This document shows, piece after piece, positions 4,129 through 37,700 of a stretch of 64,000 nucleotides of DNA. The notes beneath the pieces are model-generated. The model did not search any database, had not been told where the DNA came from, and saw only the letters and a program-made list of their open reading frames with translations. Each line of letters begins with the position of its first letter. Within the stretch, counting starts at the first letter, position 1. The stretch comes from Apostichopus japonicus. Taxonomy: Eukaryota; Echinodermata; Holothuroidea; Aspidochirotida; Stichopodidae. The stretch covers positions 5,820,713 through 5,884,712 of the forward strand of contig NC_092574.1 of NCBI RefSeq assembly GCF_037975245.1. The letters are read 5' to 3'. Both the position numbers and the translations under genes were made by a program.

Positions 4129-7100
4129 ATGTCATCTTTGGAGAGAAAGTTACTGATGAAATCGTTGGGAAGTACACTGCCTCCGATGCCACCTCCTGGA
4201 GTACCTGGAAGGTATGCTAGGCATTTAAGGCCATATTCAACCTAACCTAAGTTCTGCTTTCATTGAAAATTGGCAACTTAGGCCTATCCTTTAAATTGAA
4301 ATGCATCGGAAATTTGCTAGGCTAACCACATACTGTACAAATTAACAGTTGGTAGCCTAGAGGCTAGACTCTAAGCTTGTGTTAGTATGAGTTTTAGCAA
4401 ACACCAACACCATCTGACTCATGCAGTATCACTACTGTAACGTACATTTACAATACATGTACCGTAGGCCTAGAAATATTAAAAATGTTAAATGTTATGC
4501 AACCTAATGGTATTGATGGGATGTGGACCTGAATAACTGTATCTTACTTAACATAGCCTGAGTTTGTTTTCCATCATAATGTACTAACCCCAAGATTTAA
4601 TGCGAACTCAATACTGTGTCTGCAGTAAGTGTTTTCCTGAGTAATTTAGTTTGAAGTTAAAAAGATTAAAGTTAATTTTTGTATCCCCTTTTCAGTGGCA
4701 TAGCATAAGGGTAGAAGGGTATGGGCAGAGCCCTCCTTATTTTCAGTAAATTTGTGACACATTGTTATACTTCGGTATTCCTTTTTTAGTTAGTAGTTGA
4801 GTGATTATGCTTTGTTTGAAAGTTGTCCCTTTGACCAATTATCATTTTTGTCTTATGTTACTGTTTGCTTTCATTTTCACAGAAAGAAACGAAAAGGACC
4901 GCAAAGTAGAAGAAAGGACTATAGCCTGCTCCCTTGGAGTGACTATTTCTCCTCAGCCAAAGACTTAAAAGTTGATGATGATGACATATCCATACTTTTA
5001 CTATTTAAAGAAGGGTCATCTGTATTTTCCTAAGTATTTGTTAGAATGTTTCAAACTACTTGCATGTAGGCTCCAAGCATCCCAGGATGAAAAAGGACCA
5101 TTAGCAAAATAGTTAACATCTTTCCTCTTTTTAAATTTGTTTATAACTTTCCTGTCACTGGTATACATTTAACAGATTCAAGTACTACTGGCTATCGTTA
5201 ACAGCATCTTTCTTGTTCGTATTATGAGGTTAACTGTTAGTAATAAAATTGGTCCTAGATGCATATTGGTTCTAACTTGAAAGGTAGTCCACCTGCATGT
5301 CCTTTTCAAGGTACTTGTGTATAGAACCTTTATATCTTAAATTTTGGCTAAGTAATAGTAAGGAAAAAACCTGAATGACTTTTAAACACACCCCCTCCCC
5401 TCTCCCCCCCAAAAAACATAAGAAGATAAGTGATCATGCCAGAAAATGATTTGTTAAATTTTCAATAATAACTTTGACATTTTCCTGTTTCAATTTCACT
5501 CAAATTTATGTTTCTATTGTCCTTAATGGATTAACACATCTTCCATATATATGAGTGTGGCAGTGAAGGTCCTGTGGTTTTCATGATTCATGGTGGTGGT
5601 TTCTCTGGTCTGACCTGGGCAGTCTTGTCTGTAAGTACCTTTTGTGTACATTTATATTAAATTTTTATTTGTACATGTGAGCACTTTATCAATAGTTTTT
5701 CATAATTATTCTTCGTTCATTAAAACAAAAGTTCAATTGATGAAATGAAATTCTACACCACCAGATGTTTCAGCCAGTCATTGAATGTTATCTGTTGCAA
5801 CAATGAGCGATTTCCTCCAGCTCATGAAAACATTTAGGTTGCCAGCTTCACCAACTGAATTACTCTATAGAATTCAGGTGACACAAGTCAAAATGAACTG
5901 ATGATATGTGGATCATCCAGTACACTATGGCTCAAGTTTAATTTCTTCAAATTTACAGGCTACTTTGACTAAATTGGTGAAATGCAGAACATTAGCTGTT
6001 GATGTCAGAGGTCATGGAAACACAAAAACAAGTGAGGAAGATGATATATCAGCAGATAGACTAGCCAGGTAAGAGGAAGACTGCAGTAGATATTCATCCT
6101 AAATATGTCAGCAGGCGAGTAGCCAAGGGGGGGGAGGGGCGAAGGGGGCGACCGCCCCCACCCCCTTGAGCATATTTTTTTTGTGTACGTTTTCATGATA
6201 TTGCTAGTAATTTCAAAATAGAAAATGCTTAGATGCAACTTGCTATGCCTGGGAAGTGCCATTTCCAGCGATCTGGGAGGCATTTTCGGCCAAAATTTTC
6301 TTGGCCAGATTCCCAAACAAGTTGCGTTTCATGTCTTGGAGTATCAGAAAGTTCATCTGGTAAAAGAGAGTTAATGCCTTCAAAACAACCTTGTATAGAA
6401 TAATGAGCAAGCTATTGATTGAGCAGTTTCACCTGGTAATGTGGAATGCTGCTTTTTTATTAAGGTTCTGCTGCCCCTTGTTAGTCGCCCACACTATACA
6501 ACTGGAACATTCATTCAAGTATCATTCCATGAATCACAGTTTGGAAAAGTATTTTATTGACTTTCTGCCTAATTTTATCGCAGGGACATTGGAAAGATCG
6601 TCTCCACACGTTACAAGGATGAAACAGCTCCGCCTATCATACTAGTAGGGCACAGTATGGGAGGTGCGATCGCAATCCACAGTGCAGTTAAAAACCTGGT
6701 ACCCTCATTAGCCGGTATGGTGGTAATTGATGTGGTCGAAGGTAAGACTCTATGCCATAGGAATTTACGATAACGACCTTAATAATAGATTTGGAAAAAA
6801 AATTGTGGAGTAAGGATGTGGTTGGTACTGCACAGGGCAGCTAATAACCTGGTACCCTCATTAGCTAGTATGGTGGTAATTGATGTGTTAGAGAAGGTAA
6901 CACACTGTCATAGATATTAACAATAACAATTAAACAATATTTTGGAATAGATTTGAAAAGGGAGTAGGATAATATGGGAAGGAGGTATAGGGGGGGGGGA
7001 GGATATGGGGGGGGTTGCCTGCACAATAGCAACAGAAGTAACCACACCAACGTAACCATGTTTAATCTCTGGGTGATTAAAACCAGTTAATTGAAGTTAC

Positions 7101-16305: not shown

Positions 16306-17530
16306 AATCGATTTCGCCCAAATGACGTAACAGGGAGTAATCGATGCTCAGGAGCCCAAATCTGCAACTCCCAGGTCCATATCTGCTTCCGTTCGGGAGA
16401 TACGTGGTCCCAAAGTACAAGATAGAAATACGTGTTCTTTATAAGTGCAAAATTTGAAAAAAAACCCTCTTTTCAGCCCCTCTCTTGTCCTCTCTGAAAC
16501 ACCCATCGACATTAAACTTAGACGTGGAGTAAAAGACACCCTTGTCTTTGTTATACACCAATTTCGTGTAACTATCTGACCGGGAAAGGCTTTTTGTCTA
16601 TATGATTTCTATTTGCGCCAAAAATAGGTGTTTTGTCTTGAAAAGTTAAAAAAGTACCTCTTTTTGGTACCCAATTCCAAAATAAACTTCAGATTCGTAA
16701 TCAGCGTGTCGCGAACTACCAGAAAAGATACACATTTATTGCCTTTGCGCCCTCTTATGACACTTTTTTCGCTCAGTTTGCAACTTCACAGGAACAATAG
16801 AAAAGCGAAAATCTTTTAGGGACAACAAAAGATTTTAATCCTTTGTTCGTCGTAAAAGTTCTTCGCTCTTACTTTTTTTGAGGTGAAAAAACTTGTTGTC
16901 GCAAAATCGATAAATGTGGATCTTTTCTGGTAGTTCGCGACACGCTGATTACGAATCTGAACTTTATTTTGGAATTGGGTACCAAAAAGAGGTACTTTTT
17001 TCACTTTTCAGACAAAATACCTATTTTTGGCGCAAATAAAAATTGCCAAAAATTGACCCAAAATCGATTTCGCCCAAAAGACGTAACAGGGAGTAATCGA
17101 TGCTCAGGAGCCCAAATCTGCAACTCCCAGGTCCATATCTGCTTCCGTTCGGGAGATACGTGGTCCCAAAGTACAAGATAGAAATACGTGACTGTTCTTT
17201 ATAAGTGCAAAATTTGGAAAACCCCCTCTTTTCAGCCCCTCTCTTGTCCTCTCTGAAACACCCATCGACTTTAAAATTAGACGTGAAGTAGAAGACGCTC
17301 TTGTCTTTGTTATACACCAATTTCGTGTAATTATCTGACCGGGAAAGGCTTTTTGTCCATATCATGTCTATTTGCCCCAAAAATAGGTGTTTTGTCATGC
17401 AAAGTTAAAAAAGTACCTCAATTTGGTACCCAATTCCAAAATAAAGTTCAGATTCGTAATCAGCGTGTCGCGAAATACCAGAAAAGATATACATTTATCG
17501 CCTTTGCGACAAAATGTTTTTCATTTTTTA
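16306..17530. repeat. Fold-back block with direct and inverted copies
   Basis: Two direct copies of a roughly 450-bp unit (16306-16757 and 17062-17512) both begin at ATCGATTTCGCCC and share ACGTAACAGGGAGTAATCGA and ATCTGCTTCCGTTCGGGAGA. Between them, 16905-17040 is the reverse complement of the 3' part of unit 1 (about 16620-16745; shared AATCAGCGTGTCGCGAA). The palindrome centre carries AAAATCTTTT and AAAAGATTTT at 16808-16837. Open frames here are the same DNA read in different copies, not independent genes. Confidence 0.85.
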
Positions 17531-17644: not shown

Positions 17645-20362
17645 TTGGTAGTGCTCTGAAACGCAAAGAGTCAGATAAATGCGAAATCTGCGGTTCAATT
17701 CCCAGTTGAGGCTTTTAATTTTCTGATCTTTTCTTCCTTTCTTTCTGAGGTTTAAATATTAGAAACGAGCATTATTTCTCATCAGTTACAGTGGCGCAGT
17801 TGGTAGTGCTCTGAAACGCAAAGAGTCAGATAAATGCGAAATCTGCGGTTCAATTCCCAGTTGAGGCTTTTAATTTTCTGATCTTTTCTTCCTTTCTTTC
17901 TGAGGTTTAAATATTAGAAACGAGCATTATTTCTCATCAGTTACAGTGGCGCAGTTGGTAGTGCTCTGAAACGCAAAGAGTCAGATAAATGCGAAATCTG
18001 CGGTTCAATTCCCAGTTGAGGCTTTTAATTTTCTGATCTTTTCTTCCTTTCTTTCTGAGGTTTAAATATTAGAAACGAGCATAATTTCTCATCAGTTACA
18101 GTGGCGCAGTTGGTAGTGCTCTGAAACGCAAAGAGTCAGATAAATGCGAAATCTGCGGTTCTATTCCCAGTTGAGGCTTTTAATTTTCTGATCTTTTCTT
18201 CCTTTCTTTCTGAGGTTTAAATATTAGAAACGAGCATAATTTCTCATCAGTTACAGTGGCGCAGTTGGTAGTGCTCTGAAACGCAAAGAGTCAGATAAAT
18301 GCGAAATCTGCGGTTCAATTCCCAGTTGAGGCTTTTAATTTTCTGATCTTTTCTTCCTTTCTTTCTGAGGTTTAAATATTAGAAACGAGCATTATTTCTC
18401 ATCAGTTACAGTGGCGCAGTTGGTAGTGCTCTGAAACGCAAAGAGTCAGATAAATGCGAAATCTGCGGTTCTATTCCCAGTTGAGGCTTTTAATTTTCTG
18501 ATCTTTTCTTCCTTTCTTTCTGAGGTTTAAATATTAGAAACGAGCATAATTTCTCATCAGTTACAGTGGCGCAGTTGGTAGTGCTCTGAAACGCAAAGAG
18601 TCAGATAAATGCGAAATCTGCGGTTCAATTCCCAGTTGAGGCTTTTAATTTTCTGATCTTTTCTTCCTTTCTTTCTGAGGTTTAAATATTAGAAACGAGC
18701 ATTATTTCTCATCAGTTACAGTGGCGCAGTTGGTAGTGCTCTGAAACGCAAAGAGTCAGATAAATGCGAAATCTGCGGTTCAATTCCCAGTTGAGGCTTT
18801 TAATTTTCTGATCTTTTCTTCCTTTCTTTCTGAGGTTTAAATATTAGAAACGAGCATTATTTCTCATCAGTCACAGTGGCGCAGTTGGTAGTGCTCTGAA
18901 ACGCAAAGAGTCAGATAAATGCGAAATCTGCGGTTCAATTCCCAGTTGAGGCTTTTAATTTTCTGATCTTTTCTTCCTTTCTTTCTGAGGTTTAAATATT
19001 AGAAACGAGCATTATTTCTCATCAGTTACAGTGGCGCAGTTGGTAGTGCTCTGAAACGCAACGAGTCAGATAAATGCGAAATCTGCGGTTCAATTCCCAG
19101 TTGAGGCTTTTAATTTTCTGATCTTTTCTTCCTTTCTTTCTGAGGTTTAAATATTAGAAACGAGCATTATTTCTCATCAGTTACAGTGGCGCAGTTGGTA
19201 GTGCTCTGAAACGCAACGAGTCAGATAAATGCGAAATCTGCGGTTCAATTCCCAGTTGAGGCTTTTAATTTTCTGATCTTTTCTTCCTTTCTTTCTGAGG
19301 TTTAAATATTAGAAACGAGCATTATTTCTCATCAGTTACAGTGGCGCAGTTGGTAGTGCTCTGAAACGCAACGAGTCAGATAAATGCGAAATCTGCGGTT
19401 CAATTCCCAGTTGAGGCTTTTAATTTTCTGATCTTTTCTTCCTTTCTTTCTGAGGTTTAAATATTAGAAACGAGCATTATTTCTCATCAGTTACAGTGGC
19501 GCAGTTGGTAGTGCTCTGAAACGCAAAGAGTCAGATAAATGCGAAATCTGCGGTTCAATTCCCAGTTGAGGCTTTTAATTTTCTGATCTTTTCTTCCTTT
19601 CTTTCTGAGGTTTAAATATTAGAAACGAGCATTATTTCTCATCAGTTACAGTGGCGCAGTTGGTAGTGCTCTGAAACGCAAAGAGTCAGATAAATGCGAA
19701 ATCTGCGGTTCAATTCCCAGTTGAGGCTTTTAATTTTCTGATCTTTTCTTCCTTTCTTTCTGAGGTTTAAATATTAGAAACGAGCATTATTTCTCATCAG
19801 TTACAGTGGCGCAGTTGGTAGTGCTCTGAAACGCAAAGAGTCAGATAAATGCGAAATCTGCGGTTCAATTCCCAGTTGAGGCTTTTAATTTTCTGATCTT
19901 TTCTTCCTTTCTTTCTGAGGTTTAAATATTAGAAACGAGCATAATTTCTCATCAGTTACAGTGGCGCAGTTGGTAGTGCTCTGAAACGCAAAGAGTCAGA
20001 TAAATGCGAAATCTGCGGTTCTATTCCCAGTTGAGGCTTTTAATTTTCTGATCATTTCTTCCTTTCTTTCTGAGGTTTAAATATTAGAAACGAGCATTAT
20101 TTCTCATCAGTTACAGTGGCGCAGTTGGTAGTGCTCTGAAACGCAAAGAGTCAGATAAATGCGAAATCTACGGTTCAATTCCCAGTTGAGGCTTTTAATT
20201 TTCAGATCTTTTCTTCCTTTCTTTCTGAGGTTTAAATATTAGAAACGAGCATTATTTCTCATCAGTTACAGTGGCGCAGTTGGTAGTGCTCTGAAACGCA
20301 AAGAGTCAGATAAATGCCATATCTGCGGTTCAATTCCAGGTTAAGGCTTTTACTTTTCTGAT
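17645..20362 (+). repeat. 155-bp tRNA-like satellite, 18 units
   Basis: A partial first unit is followed by 17 units whose GTGGCGCAGTTGGTAG starts fall exactly every 155 bp from 17791 to 20271. Each unit has an 83-nt tRNA-like part (17785-17867 in the first complete unit). It has an A box TGGCGCAGTTGGTAG, a fully paired D stem (GCGC/GTGC), a possible TCTGA/TCAGA stem, B box GGTTCAATTCC and 6 of 7 acceptor pairs counting G-T. TTTT follows at once, as in a Pol III terminator. The remaining roughly 72 bp is an AT-rich, pyrimidine-rich spacer. Units differ at only a few positions, implying recent amplification or ongoing homogenisation. The unusual anticodon-arm size argues against ordinary tRNA genes, so a tRNA-derived satellite or Pol III transcript array is the best reading. 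Confidence 0.93.
17785..17867 (+). ncRNA. tRNA-like unit (representative of 17 complete copies)
   Basis: First complete tRNA-like copy in the array. The D arm is canonical (stem 4 bp, loop AGTTGGTA). The T loop TTCAATT is canonical, but its stem pairs poorly (two of five firm pairs). The anticodon arm does not fold with a 7-nt loop: TCTGA/TCAGA leaves 11 nt, and CTCT/AGAG leaves 9 nt. Pol III transcription is plausible; charging as a tRNA is not supported. Confidence 0.5.
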
Positions 20363-20414
20363 GTTTGGAGAAGGTGGAAGTATAAATATAAGGAACGAAG
20401 TTTTTCCATTGGGA

Positions 20415-20500
20415 ACCAAAATGGTGTAATGGGTAGCTCCGCTACCTATGAATCATTTGATCAATCCTGCCAGTGTGGGTTCAAGTCCTAGGTGAGCAAT
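20415..20500 (+). mobile_element. tRNA-like SINE head, different family
   Basis: A box TGGTGTAATGGGTAGC and B box GGGTTCAAGTCCTAGG at tRNA spacing, just past the 155-bp array but unlike it in sequence. A GC-rich body with poly-C and a repeated GCGCGGAC segment follows to about 20660. Probably a single SINE. Confidence 0.6.
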
Positions 20501-20736
20501 CGCTGCAAAAGGACTTCGCTGGATAGGTTGGTCTGGTACCCAACCCCCCCCCCCGGCGGAACAAGGTGAGTTTCGCGGACCCCCTCCCCCTGACAAGGTT
20601 CCAGCGCGGACTAGGTGAGTTGCGCGGACCCCCTCCCCCTGACAAGGTCCCCCTCCCTCCGAAGGGGAAAACTCTTTTAAGGAAAACATACTAAGTACCC
20701 ACAATTGGATGTTTAAATATTTTTATTGAAAGCTAA

Positions 20737-20815
20737 ATCACTAGCCCACCTTATGGTCTGGTGGAAGACAAACATTTTTTGGAACACAAGGTCCCTGGTT
20801 CAATCCCTACTTCTG
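20737..20815 (+). mobile_element. Degenerate tRNA-like element
   Basis: CTAGCCCACCTTATGGTCTGG resembles a decayed A-box region, and GGTCCCTGGTTCAATCCC has a good B box about 50 bp later. A CA/A-rich tail (20836-20925) follows, as expected for a SINE. Weaker than its neighbours. Confidence 0.4.
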
Positions 20816-20959
20816 CTTTGCTTCTTACATTTTACTTTTGCCCCAAACAAACACACACATAAAAAAAAAAACACTCACAAAAAAAAAAAAAACCTCCACA
20901 CACACACAAACACACACGCACTGCTAATTTTTCACATGTTTTAGCAGCTCACAGATAAA

Positions 20960-26044: not shown

Positions 26045-29000
26045 TTAGTCCTCCTTGCCTACGAGGCCGTTCAGCTCGGGTTGGAGCAGCTCCTTCACAA
26101 AGGTCTTCACAAATGACTTGAGTTTTACTTCCAAGCTGGATTTACCACTGCAAGAAAGGGCAAGAGATGGGCTTGATAAAACATTTGAGATTCCTGTTAG
26201 CCTTGAGTTATGCAAATTACTTTTCTAGTTTATATTGTTCACACTTCTGAAGATCTCACAATTCCACACAATTCTGCACACAATACAGATCCATTATAAG
26301 ACATTTCACTTCAGATTTAAAGAGTTGCGTATCCTCCTTTTCCCCAGAAAAAAACAAAAACAAAGTGTTTTACAGTTTACTAAGTTAGGCACTACCACTC
26401 GAGAGGAGCGCCTTAACTTTTTTGGTCTTTTCCAACAGATTACATCGAACATATTGCATCTAAACATTAAGAGGAAAGTTTAAAGAAGTATCCAATCATT
26501 TATACTCTTGATACTACTACACACCACATAGAGTGATCGCTACAGTAACAGTTGTTGGAGTACAATACTGTAGTTTTCCTATCCTATTAGGCCATTGGTG
26601 TGTATTCCTTGCAAAGATACATACAACCTAGCCAGGTAGGGAGGGGTTGTAACTTTCTATTCTTAATATTTCTTAGGAAAGTTAGAAAATAAAAAATTCC
26701 CAGGACATACCTGACTGACATGTCACCAAAGATTTCGGAATAGTATTTAATCTTGGGCTCTGTGCCGCTGGTACGCAACGTCGCGATGCATCCATTCTCA
26801 AAGTTGAAGGTGATCATGTGACTAGATTTACTGGTAGGAAGAATCTAAAAACGGAAAAACGAAACAGACGAAGACAAACCTCAAATGAGAACTGGTCTCG
26901 ATTAAACGGTTCTGCAACCGTGCATGACTAGCAGAAATTTTTTATTTTATCATGTCTCCCCCCCCCCCCCCACCCAAGGTCACTGAGATGGCATTTGAAA
27001 TTAATCCATGGGACTTAAAAGTGGGAATTTGGTAAACAGAAGTGTTTTTTCTAACATTTATATCTTTTCATGTTTCTTTCTTCTCTCCATGTTTTGTCTA
27101 CTAATCCTTTTACATCTATCTCATTTGTGTTCACCCTGCTCATTAACCTGTCTGTATTCTGTGCGTGTATTTGTCCCATCTGTTACTGTAAATTGTCGTT
27201 CAGCCTCTGAAGAAGATCCTGCTGGGATCGGAATGTCAGGCCCTCTTACTTTTACACATCTTTTCATATTGGTAAATGAATAATTAGTACTTAATAAATC
27301 ATTAGTAAAATAATGAGTAATTGAATAATGGAAACCAGAACTGGGGAATTAAAGACTTTCTGTGACTCTTATCCATTGTTTATATCTTTTGTGAGGAACA
27401 ATAAAATGAAACGGGGACGCCTACAGTGAATCACAAGAAGCTATAGAAGGATGGGCCTTGGGGTTTTAATATTTCTAGAACCTTTTAGTAACAATCAGTT
27501 GGTTTCAATTCTACTCACTGCTTTATTGTCAGGCTGGTTGTTATCATATCCAGTAGTAAGATCTCTGAGGCCCGTTATCTTGACTCCACCGACCTGCGAT
27601 GGATACTGCAGGGGAAGGGACAAAAAAAACGTTACTAACGTTTGTAGGCTGGCTCGGCAGTGACTCAGTACTTCCACAATAAATGTGTGATCGACATGTC
27701 AGGCTGTCAACTCAGAAAATAGCATAGAGATTGGAAACACACAACGAAAATGTTGCACATGCGATGGCTTGAACTTAATAAGGCTTAATGAAGAATTTAT
27801 ATCGTCAAAAGGAGGTGTATTATGCGCAAGCAAAAGCTACAGCCTGAATTGAACGACCAGGATGCAAATATACTGACTGTGAAGGGCCAGTCTGCCATTC
27901 ATGTTTAAGATAAGGGATGGATTAACTGTGTTCCTGTCAACCTAATTCATCCCCATACCGGGGCCAGGGTCTCTTCACCCCTCCCCCACCACACTTTCAT
28001 AGCGAGTCAGGAAAAATGTCAGTCAGGGGACTTGTTTACATTCAGTCGAGAAGAAAATAAACCACTAACTGCATTTAGACCTAATTCTAGACCGAAATTT
28101 ATAGTCTACAATAAGCCTCAGATGGCACCGATTGACTTTTAACATCCCCCCCACCCCACCCCACATGGGAGTCTGCTTCAATGACCATAGGGCCTCTCAA
28201 TTTTTCAATTCAATTTCTTTATCCCAGTATAAATTACAAAATTTATAAATAGGACACATAATGATAATGATACATAAAAGACGTAAAAATGTACAATCAT
28301 GAAAACATGAACAAATAAGAAATAAGATGGAGGATTAGAAGTTTGAAAGACTAAAAGGATTATAACATAGATTCTAAAAACCCATTTTGAATATAAATGG
28401 CTGCTCTGTAGATAAATGAGTTCTTAAAAAGCATAATTCTAAAAGTTGGCAAGATCATAGGATTACGTAGATTGTACTTGTTGGTTCTATTGCACAGAGA
28501 GGTCAACCCGGAGTGAAGTGGGTGATCTTTAGAACTATGTATAGTCTTAGCTAGTCTTATGAATTCATTTTTAGCAGCAGTGTTTACTTTACCAACCAGG
28601 CTTTCATAGTTGAGATTAAATATATTTGAGCAGTATTTCAAGAAACTTCTAATTCTTTTCTTGTCCTTTTCAAGTAGAAAGTGATACCAGACAGGAACTG
28701 CATACACAATCACTGGCAGAATTGATGAGTTGAAAACCTTATCTCTTACAACTGCCTTTCTCTAATGCTATATCAGATTGACCACTTCTATAGAGATTCC
28801 TGCCACTACCTCAACAAGTGGTGTGGAGATATACAAATTTAACCCTCACCACACCTTTGAATTACTCTGCACACTGTCTTCCCCCCCCCTACTCTTCCTT
28901 CCCCCTGCCCTCACCCTTTCCTGAGCAAAACATAAGAACAAGACGACTCACAGATCCATCCTCCATAGACCTTATTCTTTCGAAGATGGCTTTCGTCGTG

Positions 29001-32000
29001 TCGGGGTTATGACAGAGGTAGTAAGAGTTTGAGCTGAAATGATAGCCGTACCTGGAAAAAGGAATGATCAATCATGTTGATATTATACACACAATGACCG
29101 AGACCGATTCTGAATATTCAGTGACAAGAGGTTCTCAACCCAAGAAACTAGCCACTAATCATAGTCAGGAGTGATCAATTAGGTTGATTATGATCTGCCT
29201 TCGTCTGAACAATTCATACTATTAATCACAGGCGTAGGAGCCTAATTTGATTCGAGGGCTGAAACGACTTGCCCGAAAAAAATAACCAACATTTTCCATG
29301 CGCGTTCAACAAGTTAATGTGCATGTCATACAGGCATTCATCAGTTATTACATCACATGCCAATAACATACCATTATTTTACATACCATTTTTTTCACTA
29401 CCCTTCCATATTGGTTATAATTATTGGGGAAGTCATTACAGTGTTCAAAATAATATAAGTTTAACCATTGAAAAACACATTGCAAATTATTTTTCTTTCA
29501 GTGGGTGCCCGAAAAATTCTCAGCATTTTGCCCGAATTTTCACAAAAAAATTGGTCGGGGGGGCTGCAGCCTCCTACGCCTATGCTATTTATTGAGGTTT
29601 GGCTTTTGTTGAGGTTCGGCTTTACCTGACCTTTAACCTGACTGGAAGGGAAATTGTCAACTGTCTGGAAATTAAACTTCTACATGTACACTTTTTCTAT
29701 GGATCGGTGGTGGAGGGAAGGGGTGGGTGAGGGTGAGGGGGAGGGGAAGGGGAGGGGGATAGCTGTAGTTAATGAGCATGATCCTTGTGATCTTCAGGTT
29801 ATTTCCTCCAAGTAGTGCCTGGCCAAAATATGACTGACAAATGTAATCTTTGTTCAAAACACCACTGAATATTTGTATATAGAGAAATATGTTTCAACTC
29901 ACTTCTGATAAAGCTCATCCAGCTTAGCAACGAGAGTTTTGTTTTCGGTGGCAAGGAAAGCAGCCATCTCACCGATGATAGCACCAGCACTGACTCCATC
30001 TTTATCAAGAACTTGCGTGCAGCACATGAAACCTGGTGGGTGAAATGCAGGCGAAATATTATCATCGTAGATCGTAGATCAATGTAGATAGATGGATAAA
30101 CAAAAGATGGACAAAGGTACAGACGATCATGATCAGAGGTGCAGGCAAGCTTGATCAGTGCTGCAGGCAAACAGGATCAGATATGCAGGCAATCATAAAT
30201 ACGCAGGTAGTCAAACATGGAGATTGGTCGTGAACCAATACAGGCATACACGTAGGAAATGAGTAGAAACGCATTCAATCATGAGCATGGACGAGACAGC
30301 CACTGATGTAGGCATAGCAACAAGGAAGGTGCATGGAACCATAAACATTGTCATGCATGCAAGTAAATACTGCCAAAGATCATCATGGATGCAGGCGAGT
30401 GTAGTCACAAATACAGATAAACACACAGAGCAGCATAGTAGATGTGCAGGCGACAGGAACTTGAATTCATGCAGCGTGATCATTTAACCTGTTGGTTTTT
30501 TTACTTTAATAGTGACAATGTCTTCTGTAGAATTTATTCTACATTTTTCATACTTTGTTATTTCAAACTAAAATAATACCTAGTTTGTATCAAGAAAATC
30601 ACTGCATTTTAAGTTAGAGCATTTTTATGGACCTCTTCAATTGTAATGACATTACTAACCAAATCAGGACATAAAATATGTATGACTTTCCAATGACCGT
30701 ATGATATGTTTCACTTAGAAAATGTACAGTTATCGGCTGGACTGGTTCTATAAATTTGAGATAGTTGGTTTCTTTATGGTTTACTTTACGATACCGATAT
30801 CGTTGAACGAATTAAATATTTCTTTATTCTTTTTGCACATTTTACCTATTGCCTCTTCATACGCAAACAAGCAGGTCTTTCCTTCTTTCATTAATGCATC
30901 TATTCTGTTGCCCATCCACTTGTGTCCTGTAAGTGTTTCCTGGAACAAGAAAATATAAAATTAAAATTCGAAATGAAATTTAAGTTTCCAAAGCAATTAC
31001 ATGAATAAATGTACTCAACCATAGCAATAGCCCCCCCCCCCCCTTCGACCCCCACGAAGAAAAATGCACTAAACAATTTATCCATCAGACTAATTAATAT
31101 CCAGTGAGTAGTGTCATGTATTTTAGATCATCCTGCAAGCAGGAACTCGCGAAGCCTCATTGGCTTATCAAAGCCGCAAGCTGACCGAAATCAGTCTCTT
31201 GCATTCATATTTAACATCCATAATTATGAATTGTCAACAACTCTGTAACTGGACTACATATACATTAATCTGGGAGTGACTCGAACCGGGGACCTTATGA
31301 TTGAAAGGCATCAGCGTTAACCACTGAGCTAACACTCCTAGCTTCCAAATACACTCCTATGTTTCCAAATACAAATGTACCAGCTGAAACCCCTCTTAGA
31401 TTAGTACAACAAGACAGTTCCTTATATATACGCTGATTAAACTGACAGAAACTGGTGTATCCTGGAGTCGTGCGACTACTGGAATAATCATTGTGGGAAT
31501 CATAATACAGAAATGTTTAAACTTAAAACTAGTGTTGCGCCGATATCACCAATATCGGTTTTGGCCGATATCCGATATTATCATCCCAATATCGGTCCGA
31601 TACCGATACGATACCGATATTTTTTAACAGACAAAATAAACTGGACGCAGTAAATGTGAGCCTTAACATCGTAAAGACTTACAAGTTGCTTACAGTGTTA
31701 ACGTATGCTTGCAAAATTGCATCTTAATTAGGTTACGAACTGTCAATCACAATGTAAAAGTTATAATTTATTGAGTTTATACTCAATGTGCAACTTATTC
31801 ACTGGACCGTATAGAAAAAAAAAACTGAAAATCAGTAGAGAAATGACCAATTGTGTACGGAAAGTAAGGTGGTACACCTTTCAAATATTACGAAAGATCG
31901 AGCAATTTTACTCTCGAAAAATTCACGCAAAACTGGCATATCGTACTAAATGCAACTAATGTCATGTAAACAAGGCTCTAGTGCATCCATTTATGAATAT

Positions 32001-34697
32001 ACCGTAAGAACACATCTGTTGTTAAGCGGGGGAAAAGAAAGTATTTTCTAAAATTCCCCAAAAAATGGAAAAAATAATATCCTACTATAGTTAAGTGTAT
32101 AGCAAATAGCCTAACCACCTCGGCGGTTACGGATCTCACGTAACTAAAAAGTTCCCTGGCAACGTGCCAAAAAATGTTAACAAGCAGGTGTTACACAGGG
32201 GATAAGCTCACAGTTACTTTGGGAAGGTACCTGGGAAAATTTGCAGCACATGTACCGTGGTAGTTGGGTACAGGGTTAAACACTGCAGTTGTAAAAATGT
32301 ACGCATAGTGCACGCTATTTATTGTTAGGCAGTCTAGAAACAGGGCTTTGCTGAACGTTGTTTGTTTCATGATATCGGAAGTTTTGTAAGTTGCACTTTT
32401 TAAAGATTGAAAGACAGATTAAATCTCTTTTCGTTTTATATAATTATATAGGTACTCTAACTTGTCATTTTAAAATTTATCAGTTTCGTGAAAATTTAAA
32501 TAAAAAAGTTTTCAGTATTTTGTGTTCGTGGGAAATTGAACAAGGTTTTCCAACACTGCTGAACTGTGCAGTTATACATCATGTTCAAGGTTTTCACGGA
32601 GGCCTTTGAGAAAATGAATGGTTAGTACTGTGTATATGCTGCACTAAAGCTGTGTGTAGGCCAAGGTTCACGAAGGTCATTGGTTATATTCGCTCGTCGT
32701 AGACATGTTTTTAGAGGTTACGGAGGGTCAGGTTTCCATGGATATTAATCGAAAATGAATCTGAGTTTAACTGACGCTAAAGAAATGAATCGTCTTGGGC
32801 AGATTAACAGATCATTGCAAGTATAAAGAAGTAGCTCTGCTGTTAAAAAGAAAAGTTCAATATTGGTTTGCTGTTATCGGCAATTAGGCAAAATTTTACC
32901 GATACGGATATGCTGCCGATATTGCAAATATCGGCCGATACCGATATTGAAAACGATTATCGTAGCAACACTACTTAAAACCCTTTGTTTGACAAGTATT
33001 AAACTTTAATATAGACCAATACATCAAAAACAGCTGATATCAGAGATAAATAACCTAGATCATGGAATAGAATTTCCAATAAACCACAAATGATGCAAAT
33101 AATTGTATGACATCCACAACTATTTTCAGTGAGTTTCGTCTTTGTGTCACAATGAAATTCTCTGCGCTCTGGTTCATAAATAAAAAACTGATACCTCTTA
33201 GAAGAAGTTTGAAAAAAAAGAAAAACCAATGTCCAAGGAAGGAGTTAAAGGGAAAAGTTTCTACAGCCAAATAGAGAGAAAAAAATACTTAAATGAAAAT
33301 AATACTAATTAACATCACTTTAACACTCTTTTACTCTTCAAAGCTTATTCACAACAGACAAATGTTTGAGGATTATAAAAGAATGATTTTTTACCTCAAA
33401 TATGAATCCCTCTTTCTCCGCAATGTGTTTCAGCATCTTAGAAGAAACAGCACTGGCAAACATATGGACATCTGCATGAAAAAGAAAAAGAAAAACAAAA
33501 ATGAACAAGCAACGATACAAAAAAGAAAACAAAAGAAATATACACAGAACAAAAAACAAAATAGAAAAAAAAACAATTCACAATAATACTGAAACAATAC
33601 ATTATCCTCAGACAAAATGCAGTTTAACCGCGCTTGTTGTCCATTCATGGAGTGTTAGCTCAGTGGTTAACGCCGGTGCCTTTCAATCATAAGGTCCCTG
33701 GTTCAAGTTAATCCCAGATTAATGTATGTCGTCCAGTTACAGAGTTGTTGACAATTAACAATTCATAATCATGGACGTTAAATATGAATGTAAGAGACGA
33801 ATTCGGTCAGCTTGCGGCTTTGATAAGCCAATGAGGCTCCTTCACAAGTTCCTGCTTGCAGGAGGATCTAAAATACATACGTACATACAAATACATACAT
33901 TCAGATATGCAGTGTCACTTACCGTTCCAATGGCTCTGTTGTTTCTTCTTGTAACATTCCAGTATCCACCACCCTAGCAGGGCACCTAGCTCGTTTCCGT
34001 TAAACACTTTCCAGGAGCCGTCTTCCAGTTTCTCCGCCACGGCTAACCTATCGGCATCTGGATCGTTGGCGAGAATCACCCGGCTTCCGTTTTCATCCGC
34101 TGTTTTGAATGAGATATTGAGGGCGCTCTTGCCCTCCTCTGGATTTGGGTTCTTGACGGTCGTGAATTCGGGATCCTCTTCAACCTAAAGAGAGATGGCG
34201 AGAGAAGCGGTTAAAATAAGTGAAATCTCACTGTATCGAATCTTTCATCAAATATCGCGTTGCAAATCGGTATGCAGAATGTGTCAAATTGCTGTACAAG
34301 TCCTACGATGTATGGCAGGTTCTAGGAATCATGGTATCTTATATGAGACAAAATTTCAGAGTCTTCCAAAACTGGTTAAACAAACTTTTGAACACAAAAT
34401 TATTTTAGGATCCAAATAAGTAGTGCAGAACACAAGTTTATGTGCAACAGCAAAAACGCACAAGGTCCCAAGTACACTAAGGGAGTTTGGGTTTGCACTA
34501 TGTATTGATCCCAAACTATGCATTTCTCTGGAAATGTGGCTTAAAATTGAATCCCTAAATAGATGGCAATGATTAAATTAGAGAAATGAGCTACTCACTA
34601 ATATTTAACAGTTAGGTCACAATGTAGTTGAATTCTTCATGCTCATGAAAAGTCATACTATCAGGTCATCAAATCCCCCCTCCAACCCCCACCCCCA

Positions 34698-34742
<45 letters not shown>

Positions 34743-37700
34743 CAGCTTTTTGTGTGTGAAGTTTCCTTGTTTCTGCATAATTTGAGAAACTATTGCCCCC
34801 AAAGTGGGAAACATGTTAATAAAAAATGAACAGATAATTATTATTTTCCATTTCCTTTGTAAGGACATAATCCTGCCACCATCGATTCTCCTAAAAAAAA
34901 ATATCCTCACTTGTTCCTTGACCAGAATCAATTCCTTGAATCCAAAATTTTGAAACATGGCTTTGAAGGCTGGCGTTCCCACACCGTGCATGGCTGTGTA
35001 GGTGAATTTCAATTTAGTTTCGGCGTTAATTTCTCTGAAAAAAAGATTTAATGTTACTTCGATAAACAGCCATAGAGACATGATTTTTGTACATGTTAGA
35101 GCATAGCTTGCCTGTGCAGTTGAATCTTTTCGCAGTTATTACAGTTGGAGTAAGAAAACTATGAATGTGACAGAACTTTGGTACTTGATTTACAAGTTAA
35201 CTAGGTTGCTAACAACATAATGAATTAAAGGAAACTCACTAATGTCTAGAATTCATTGTTTCTCTTCCCACACCGAACCCACTCCCCCACTTCGTTCTCT
35301 TCCCACACCCAACCCACTCCCTCCCACTTCGTTCTCTTCCCACACCCAACCCACTCCCGCACTTTGTTCTTTCCACACCCAACCCACTCCCCCACTTCGT
35401 TTTTGTAACACTCTTGATAGAGAACTTTCTCACATAGGCACAAGTACTCTCTCTTGCATGGCAAAGTATATAATAATAACATTTCCCTTTATATTAAATA
35501 TGCTTGTTAATTCTTTTATACAAAATTAAATGCAGCAAGTGTGAGTTTAGGAACAAGGATGCTGAACAAACAGAGAGTAAATTATTAAAACGTGTTTGGT
35601 ACCAGGTCATTATTATGCTGGTGATTGCATAATAATATAATAATATTTACTTTCTTTTAGGAACAAGGTTGCTGAACAAACAGAGAGTACATTTTTAAAA
35701 CGTGTTTGGTACCAGGTCATGATTATGCTGGTGATTGCATAATAATATTTACTTTCTATATAGCGCTTTATACCAGCGATAGGTCTCAAAGCGCTTTACA
35801 GGCGTTATATTATCCCTGGTCAATGATAACCTGTCCCAGAGACAATCCCTCCAGTGCCCAATGACAAGTTACATCACAGGTACCCATTTAACCCCTGGGT
35901 GAAGAGAGGCAAGTAAGATAAAGCATCTTGCCCAAGGACACAACGTAATGAAATAGGCAGGAATCGAACCAGATATCCTTGGATCACGAGTCCGACGCCT
36001 TAGCCAATTGGCCACCACGCTCTCACAACCCAACTGAGATATATCAGAGAATATATACATACCTGTGTAGGCACATAGCAGATGTAATATCCTTCATGTA
36101 AGAATCAAAGACTTCTTGGTAAGGATCTGTTACCAGGGCATTATCTGTGAGGATAGAGGTATCCCAAGAATGTTGCCAGGGTTCCAAATTAGCATGGATA
36201 GCTGCAGCAATACCCTTATCGACAGGTGGAATGATCTACAGAGATACATTAAACACCAGACAAGATATTAGTGCAATTCATGAGCATCTATTCATCAATG
36301 GACATACCTAATAACTGTTAGCATGGATAGCTGCACCGATACCGTTATCAACATGTGGAATGAACTACAGAGATTATAAAAACTAGACAGGAAAGTACTG
36401 AAATTCATCAGTATCACTTCATCAACAGACATACCTAATAAATGTTACTTGTTAGCTTGGAAAAATGCAGCATACCCTTATTAACAGGTGGAATGACCAA
36501 CAAAGATATGTTCATACCATGTAGGAAAGTAATGACAATTAACAGGAATCCTTATGTGCTTGAATCGTCCCAGAAACGACAACCAAAGCAATACCCTACG
36601 AAGGAGGTGGAATGGCCGACACAGAAAACTTCACACCAGCTTAGAAGGAAAAGCAAAGGAACTTACACATATCCCAACATCAATCAATCATTTTTTAAAC
36701 AAGCTACATGCTAGCATGGACAACTGCAGCTAATACCCTTAGCAATAGGTGAAATGATTTACTGTCTAAAGATAAATACACGCCAGATCAGAAAGTGAAG
36801 GCATTCGCAGGACTATAAATGTCAATTTATCAACAAATCAAATGGCAACAAAGTTGACATGAATAGCTGATTTAGTACCATCACCAACACCTTTATGAAA
36901 CATATTTAGTAGAATATGAAAATATTTGTCTTCCATAAATATGAATATTTTATTTTACATACACAGGACAGTCCATTATTATGGATCTTTTCATTTTAGA
37001 AACTACACAAATTAACGTCCAGTAATGGAAACAGGATGACGAAATATTAATCTTATCGAAACGCGATATATTCTTGGACAAATAAGACTCCTCACCTGTG
37101 CACCGTTTCCCCAGTAGACTTTATAGCCGTTGTCTCCTTTGGGGTTATGAGAGGGCGTTACCATGACACCGGCCGCCAGATTCTTCTTCCTGATGACATA
37201 AGCCTGTCAATTTAAGGGAAAACTAATAATCAATTTAAGAACTTAACAAAAATTGATGATAAACCGGTTTGGATGTGTAGACGTCAGAATTTACGAGTGT
37301 GAACCGTTCATGACAACTTAGCATGCAGTGCTTGTGCAGCCTTCTTTATCATTCAAGTTTCAGAAACTTGAGGCTAATCATCAATTTGGCATAATTATTG
37401 GAACATTGCTATTAATGTAATAAAACTCACCACAAATGGAGTTGGCGATGTGTGTGAGAATAGATAGACAGGTACACCTGCCCTGACCATGATAGCTGCC
37501 GACAGATCTGCATATCTGTGGAAGAAATCACGGCAGAAACGATGTCGACAAAAAGATCTCCAGGGTTAAATTAAGCAAGATTAGACTAGGGTTGGTTAAA
37601 AAGGAGGTCTACAAAGTTTGTATCTCCTTTAAACCAATTACAAATCATCATAATAATTAATGATTAGCAGTTTTTATATAGTGCAACTTACAATAAAGTT

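Follow-up and report, generated by a model that had tools for sequence, protein, structure and literature searches.

Dispersed cassettes of predicted Pol III small-RNA genes in Apostichopus japonicus

A 155-bp array and its three-module cassette

The window analyzed here is a 64,000-nt stretch of the Apostichopus japonicus genome (NC_092574.1, positions 5,820,713 to 5,884,712, forward strand). Its subject is a tandem array of 155-bp modules, termed M1, that resemble genes of RNA polymerase III (Pol III). To the left, on the plus strand at 6648, lies an exon whose GHSMGG motif we take to be PPME1-like; to the right are minus-strand exons with PGM domains (Table 1), in line with the flanking genes named by the original prediction for this DNA. 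That prediction treated the array as a whole entity. It is instead the left part of a cassette in which M1 is followed by two further modules, M2 and M3, and which ends near 20820.

The array itself is a homogeneous head-to-tail satellite. Tandem Repeats Finder (TRF), run on the window, resolved 17.6 copies with 98% matches and no indels. The word TTGGTAGTGCTC occurs 18 times, and all 17 spacings are exactly 155 bp, as had been claimed. An A box, TGGCGCAGTTGG, is present in 17 of the 18 units—the first, at 17645, is truncated within it—and a B box of the form GGTTCRANYCC in 15, with GGTTCTATTCC in its place at 18110, 18420, and 19970. TTTT lies 3′ of the module end in all 18, and D-stem-like pairing was found in M1 units; the earlier portrait of each unit as a Pol III-like module with A box, B box, and T4 run is thereby largely borne out, and upstream TATA-like boxes add to it. 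In the 18th unit (20280) the 3′ half has diverged, and the unit continues into another module. A combined pattern of TATA-like box, spacing, A box, and B box, composed after the modules had been seen, matches the plus strand of the window 16 times (14 in the array, M2, or M3), the minus strand 0 times, and 50 dinucleotide shuffles 0 times; A and B boxes alone give 16 matches on the plus strand, 4 on the minus strand, and 0.04 per shuffle.

Table 1. Features of the window cassette, its neighbors, and tRNA gene arrays elsewhere in the genome
Feature	Position	Strand	Basis or remark
M1 array: 17 copies with A box and one 5′-cut copy, 155-bp unit	17645..20366	+	TRF, exact spacing
TATA-like box TTTAAATA, first complete M1 module; recurs every 155 bp to 20231	17751..17758	+	Box pattern
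Predicted M1 RNA, ~90 nt, first complete module; A box 17792, B box 17847, terminal TTTT; 155-bp period	17782..17871	+	Start predicted by setting the TATA-like box at −31
TATA box TATAAATA, M2	20381..20388	+	AAATATA-type word to A box: 38 bp in 37/40 loci, 39 in 3
M2: conserved GGGAACCAAAATGGTGTAATGGGTAG (A box 20422-20433) to B box 20478-20488	20411..20488	+	40/40 array loci
GC-rich stretch without TTTT, then TTTT 20675-20678 before the M3 TATA-like box	20489..20678	+	Proposed end of a ~267-nt M2 RNA
TATA-like box TTTAAATA, M3	20712..20719	+	38-39 bp spacing in 35/37 loci
M3: A box 20754-20764, T6 20775-20780, B box 20797-20807	20743..20819	+	Pattern, 37/40 loci
PGM2-like exons, gene running toward M3	26590..35135	−	Pfam
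Dispersed ~760-bp tandem repeat with inverted parts; left neighbor, outside the cassette	16600..17521	.	Sequence unrelated to cassette
tRNA-Lys(UUU) array	C3:17760905-17776764		Every ~170 bp, 14 genes in 2.6 kb
tRNA-Ser(UGA) array	C13:21196927-21199039		Every 208 bp
tRNA-Ser(GCU) array	C8:33343106-33343900		Every ~190 bp
tRNA-Leu(UAA) array	C11:22567848-22583829		Every ~365 bp

Further arrays exist, and the boxes are kept in them. Searching the genome with part of the M1 array gave at least 185 matches on many chromosomes (best 40 of 322 candidates scored). From the matches listed we took 39 loci which, with the window, form a set of 40 arrays, with units mostly of 143-170 bp in about 2-26 copies. 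Aligning the 40 consensus sequences separates near-invariant parts—an upstream word AAATATTAGAAACGAGCA, then TTCTCAACAGTT, the A-box region TGGCGCAGTTGGTAGTGCTCTG, GTTC within the B box, and TTTT—from variable ones, namely the three letters that precede GTGG, the loops in the middle, and the 3′ side. An exact upstream 17-mer, AAATATTAGAAACGAGC, has 893 genome copies (477 + 416), and its reversed control has 0. In the units of one array (L039), 11 nt of the variable hairpin are gone and the boxes are kept.

Module order and direction are constant. To the right of the arrays come TATAAATATAAGAAACGAAG and then M2 (GGGAACCRAAATGGTGTAATKGG ... GGTTCAAGTCC) in all 40 loci, with the M1 A-box block left of M2 in each and the M2 pattern on the opposite strand in none of the 40. 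After M2 follow a GC-rich stretch, TTTAAATATTTG, and M3 (ATGGTCTAGTGGTA ... CCCTGGTTCAATCC), found by pattern in 37 loci. At two of the pattern-negative loci (L012, L013) DNA matches extend over M3; the third (L034) gave no M3 match, although the 612 bp after its M2 start leave room enough. A further 12 loci were selected by the upstream word; M2 lies rightward of it in 9. Along C12:15188312-16817588, nine exact M2 words stand in series on the plus strand, 123-259 kb apart (exact copies only listed). Judged by its sequence, the window satellite is one arm of a Pol III-like cassette, and these cassettes form a family that is real, large, and conserved.

Dispersal of this kind also invites comparison with a mobile element spreading by its own Pol III promoters. 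The M2 word, allowing up to two mismatches, occurs 230 times genome-wide on both strands (119 and 111; control 0), and rightward of M3 the similarity of close locus pairs extends over 1.3 kb, up to 3.9 kb, or, in the C19 pair, the entire 8 kb compared, with islands of similarity in the right flanks of more distant loci. Such an origin nevertheless appears very unlikely: no common ends were seen by eye, the right homology stops variably, the left junctions differ, and the shared parts contain only short open stretches, apart from one in the C19 pair that resembles a long interspersed nuclear element (LINE). Helitron-like or other transposon ends were likewise not found by eye.

Promoter geometry, predicted transcript ends, and box conservation

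The case for a family of Pol III genes starts from a fixed promoter geometry. An AAATATT-type word stands 38 bp from the A box in 280 of 299 M1 units (39 bp in 6), in 37 of 40 M2 modules (39 bp in 3), and in 6 of 37 M3 modules, where 39 bp is the usual distance (29 modules; 40 bp in 2). The M1 units came from the 40 arrays and were cut allowing up to four changes in this word. Counted from the start of TWTAAATA, the TATA-like box lies 41-42 bp before the A box in M1, M2, and M3, the distance expected if the TATA-like box sits at −31/−24 and box A at about +12, as described for 4.5SH/4.5SI and type 2 Pol III genes (PMC10137851, PMC7279448). A TATA-like box at the expected distance of about 42 bp from box A is present in 286/299 M1, 40/40 M2, and 35/37 M3 modules; the upstream spacing is thus common to three module kinds that differ in their remaining sequence. 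No TWTAAATA-type box occurs in the 50 bp before the A boxes of nine genuine tRNA loci, and the upstream word is absent from these nine, from four U6 loci, and from one vault RNA candidate examined.

The internal boxes follow the type 2 layout. Published consensus sequences are TRGYnnARBGG for the A box and GGTTCRAnYCY for the B box, usually 30-40 bp apart (PMC7279448). An A box was found in 283 of 305 M1 units and RGTTCRA in 286, at A-B distances of mostly 55 in M1, 43-60 in M2, and 42-46 in M3. Two other promoter or gene readings were set aside: the upstream regions of the four U6 loci look different from a module promoter, which disfavors a U6-type promoter with a proximal sequence element (PSE), and an exon/splice-site reading was abandoned, since M1 lacks the GT-like donor of M2.

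Candidate transcript ends hold their place as well. For M1, 224 of 256 units have their first TTTT 11-12 nt past the first ten B-box letters. In M2 the span from the B box to the first TTTT covers 131-402 nt of GC-rich DNA, and in 31 of 37 loci the T run is located 136-148 nt short of the M3 end. Because 86% of shuffles of this GC-rich DNA are also TTTT-free, the stronger point is the fixed location of the T run, not the absence of earlier ones.

Conservation is concentrated in the boxes. Mean pairwise identities are 0.87 (TATA), 0.87 (A), and 0.80 (B) across 25 M2 loci, compared with 0.47 in the other windows compared, and 0.95, 0.89, and 0.87 across 23 M3 loci, compared with 0.56; the M2 A box and M3 B box served as search anchors, so that their values are biased upward and conservation is partly built in, whereas the other four of the six boxes were not anchors. 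No other M2 or M3 window compared matches box identity. These sets derive from the 40 loci after exclusion of 15 close relatives, and of L012 and L013 also for M3; the M2 window comparison omitted the first 105 columns, which hold the last M1 module, and all boxes. Stretches adjoining the M2 and M3 boxes average 44-55% identity between loci. Where the neighboring stretch falls below 45% identity (208 of 300 pairs for M2, 90 of 253 for M3, pairs not being independent of one another), the boxes still average 0.78-0.93 and exceed their neighbor in every pair. We infer purifying selection on the boxes; signals kept while the surrounding DNA decayed suggest that the clusters are probably working small-RNA genes.

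These identities bear directly on the view that the cassettes are a functionless tRNA-derived satellite, with boxes inherited from tRNA or short interspersed nuclear element (SINE) ancestors and spread by duplication. Such satellites have a precedent in squamates, where SINE-derived ones are known (PMC10702118); several array left ends adjoin other repeats; and some M1-type modules resemble class-II tRNAs (discussed with the tRNA arrays below). Inheritance and duplication fit poorly, however, with boxes 78-93% identical between loci whose neighboring stretches are less than 45% identical, and with a TATA-like box that lies outside the tRNA-like part yet keeps a fixed distance in three different modules. 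We judge a functionless satellite distinctly unlikely and retain the reading as probable Pol III genes.

Candidate RNA folds, class membership, and interpretation

The modules are not canonical tRNA genes by the tools applied. ARAGORN called no tRNA in the window, and the Rfam model RF00005 found none at its threshold: the window array scores 19.0-22.2 bits and the best of five sister loci searched 27.3 bits, versus a threshold of 29. At related loci ARAGORN gave 0 tRNAs in 21 of 22 and one odd call in L065. The fold alignment comprised 32 of 33 distinct M1 modules, one per locus with identical ones merged and L033, whose T4 is broken, excluded. In it a tRNA-like helix set pairs 79.7% of cells, unevenly: the D stem reaches 95.3%, the T stem 66.7%, and the acceptor 64.1% plus one pair at 100%, so that pairing of the acceptor and T stems is not a family-wide property of M1. 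A competing extended 5′ hairpin (columns 1-15/24-37) pairs 83.0% of cells, versus 31-43% when slid, and has only one pair with two-sided changes, in 11 sequences. What the original prediction described as an oversized anticodon arm can be drawn as a class-II-like variable hairpin (columns 45-49/59-63) or as part of the extended 5′ hairpin. An alternative long helix, in which the 3′ side of the D stem would pair with the 3′ end of the RNA, was rejected, having no two-sided change and no excess over shuffles.

Vault RNA genes were a second candidate class, with RNAs of about 90-100 nt, wide A-B spacing, and a T4 end. Predicted M1 RNAs share this layout, yet cmscan gave no RF00006 match at E up to 5 in ten M loci and part of the window. 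Elsewhere in the genome RF00006 has at least five matches, all above the cut-off (best 49 of 43,636 candidates scored), which mark candidate vault RNA genes at C15:4741219, C16:3859647, C16:3864568, C21:15237852, and C21:15239373.

Beyond the conservation built into the two anchor boxes, several findings weigh against a family of Pol III genes. The strict B box GGTTCRANNCC occurs in only 215 of 305 M1 units, and the M3 B box reads GGCTCAAACTC in many close C19-type copies. From start to B box, M1 is TTTT-free in 267 of 270 units; this says little, because AAAA is absent almost as often (264/270). Between the M3 boxes TTTT is present in 33 of 37 loci, and such a T run would stop Pol III early. 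At L064-L066 on C1, which carry the exact upstream word and a related module, no M2 lies within 409-502 bp rightward. Neither M1 fold has many pairs with two-sided changes, and as RNAs, whole M1 modules show no clear gain in stability over shuffles (mean z −0.77 for 32 modules; opposite strand −1.07). For this reason the argument for RNA genes is built on the promoter and makes no claim of a proven fold.

From the observed sequence, order, spacing, copy number, and conservation of the cassettes, we lean toward a multigene family of Pol III transcription units. Each locus would be a one-direction cassette of tandem M1 genes, then a single M2 gene, then M3, each module using a type 2 promoter—A box plus B box—with a TATA-like box at about −31/−24 for presumed transcription by Pol III. 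M1 would give an RNA of ~90 nt with predicted ends, the last at T4. M2 may give a longer RNA, about 270 nt in the window, running through the GC-rich stretch to the T4 before the M3 TATA-like box. Because of its T run, M3 might produce no more than a ~35-nt RNA, or it might be a site for Pol III factors instead. Unequal exchange or gene conversion would expand the arrays and keep them uniform, which probably holds for the true tRNA arrays of this genome too. The family is best described as clusters of small-RNA genes predicted to use Pol III. By Rfam and ARAGORN these are no tRNAs, by Rfam they are no vault RNA, and satellite alone is too narrow a term for them. Of the readings first offered for the array, a transcribed non-tRNA small RNA thus appears the best supported. 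A fuller version, which we put forward tentatively, makes the cassettes lineage-specific Pol III clusters, some 230 per genome, in which three different small-RNA genes with a common upstream TATA-like element stay together in fixed order: a variable array of ~90-nt RNA genes, then a gene for an RNA of some hundred nt whose body is GC-rich, and last a short unit next to genes of opposite direction.

That early stop in M3 would also suit modules acting as landing sites for TFIIIC, TFIIIB, or Pol III, as boundaries or roadblocks near gene 3′ ends, with the RNA itself idle. Right flanks were studied at 15 of the 40 loci, on the right side only. Host-gene pieces recognized by Pfam lie 2-14 kb right of M3 at five of them, on the opposite strand and facing M3 in all five: PGM2-like in the window, TPR at L009 (FKBP4-like by eye), SPRY + SOCS box at L023, CoA transferase at L014, and SpoU methylase at L012. 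This is a hint that opposite-strand genes face M3. Five loci are few, though, and one direction in all five would arise by chance 1 time in 16. Most of the 15 flanks are without a gene assignment: among open reading frames (ORFs), no Pfam match was obtained for 2 of the first ten, picked by eye, for any of ten plus-strand ORFs picked later from the longer ones of these flanks, or for 9 of ten more opposite-strand ORFs, the one match being the SpoU methylase. A boundary also has no need of T4 at a fixed place past the B box. Overall we consider the landing-site account unlikely and keep to predicted Pol III small-RNA genes.

If transcribed, the cassettes would form a large Pol III gene family in a commercially and scientifically important echinoderm, and we found no description of such a family in titles and abstract starts of the open-licence literature searched. 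Hundreds of natural promoter variants, all with fixed TATA-A-B geometry, would then be at hand, and the origin and uniformity of tandem small-RNA arrays could be tested cleanly. Such arrays may be booked as unknown repeats or false tRNAs; in one A. japonicus study, very numerous Cys and Tyr tRNA calls were discarded as repeats (PMC8580430).

Related systems, tRNA arrays, and flanking sequences

The closest parallels are the rodent 4.5SH and 4.5SI genes, which likewise combine a type 2 promoter with a TATA-like box at −31/−24 (PMC7279448, PMC10137851). The 4.5SI RNA is related to a tRNA-derived SINE, and 4.5SH genes form hundreds of tandem copies. Unlike the cassettes, the 4.5SH unit measures 4-5 kb, and the 4.5S RNAs are proven whereas the cassette RNAs are predicted; the sections of these two papers on 4.5SH/4.5SI mention no three-module cassette dispersed at hundreds of loci. 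Squamate SINE-derived satellites share tandem repeats built from SINE parts, dispersed loci, and modest copy number, and the abstract describing them mentions neither fixed downstream modules nor an upstream TATA-like box (PMC10702118). Helenus terminal-repeat retrotransposons in miniature (TRIMs) with tRNA-like long terminal repeats (LTRs) also repeat a tRNA-like Pol III promoter sequence within one element (PMC10886601).

Tandem tRNA-like arrays with near-identical spacers had been called unusual, a view not supported by comparison within this genome. Genuine Lys, Ser, and Leu tRNA genes form the same kind of array (Table 1), with head-to-tail units of ~170-370 bp, A and B boxes, and uniform spacers, so that array form alone is not the surprise. 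Unlike M1, these genes are called by ARAGORN and lack the upstream box.

The same tRNA loci give a lead on origin. The module of L064, which carries the upstream word of M1, aligns best to genuine tRNA-Ser(UGA) (score 68), and the M1 of L029 to tRNA-Leu(UAA) (score 61), these being local scores against seven tRNA loci without a shuffled control. Both tRNAs have long variable arms, and descent of M1 from a class-II (Ser/Leu) tRNA is offered as a lead only. At L058 (~17-60) a tRNA-Lys array, and on the minus strand of L064 (~655-612) an M1-like module, start directly after a shared A-rich tail, GGGTGAGCCAGTGGGCTYRCC...CCAATAAAAGAG, an arrangement that would fit insertion of the 3′ end of a retroelement into the module.

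Other flanking features are varied. For the PGM2-like gene of the window, one PGM_PMM_II match (33918-34184) is above its Pfam cut-off, and a second (34656-35135) and a PGM_PMM_IV match (26590-26844) are below theirs. The ~760-bp repeat left of the array has tandem clusters on C14, C5, C9, and C20, and similar sequence seems, by eye, to adjoin the M1 arrays L023 and L073. In upstream flanks such as those of L024, L032, and L037, LINE-like tails (AATAAATCAAATCAAATAAATAA) stop just before a decayed M1 module and run in the same direction. A ~145-bp repeat with TGACCTTTGACCT, which resembles a DR1 receptor site, recurs beside cassettes, in the right flanks of L039, L014, L011, and L023 and also at L065/L066. 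Among the other contigs, C35 (16,099 bp) is mitochondrial, and its first 10 kb, with tRNAs placed by ARAGORN, show the echinoderm-like order COI-R-ND4L-COII-K-ATP8-ATP6-COIII-S(-)-ND3-ND4-H-S-ND5-ND6(-)-CYTB-F. Finally, C29:14745-31219 holds several COX1 fragments, possibly inserted or misassembled mitochondrial DNA.

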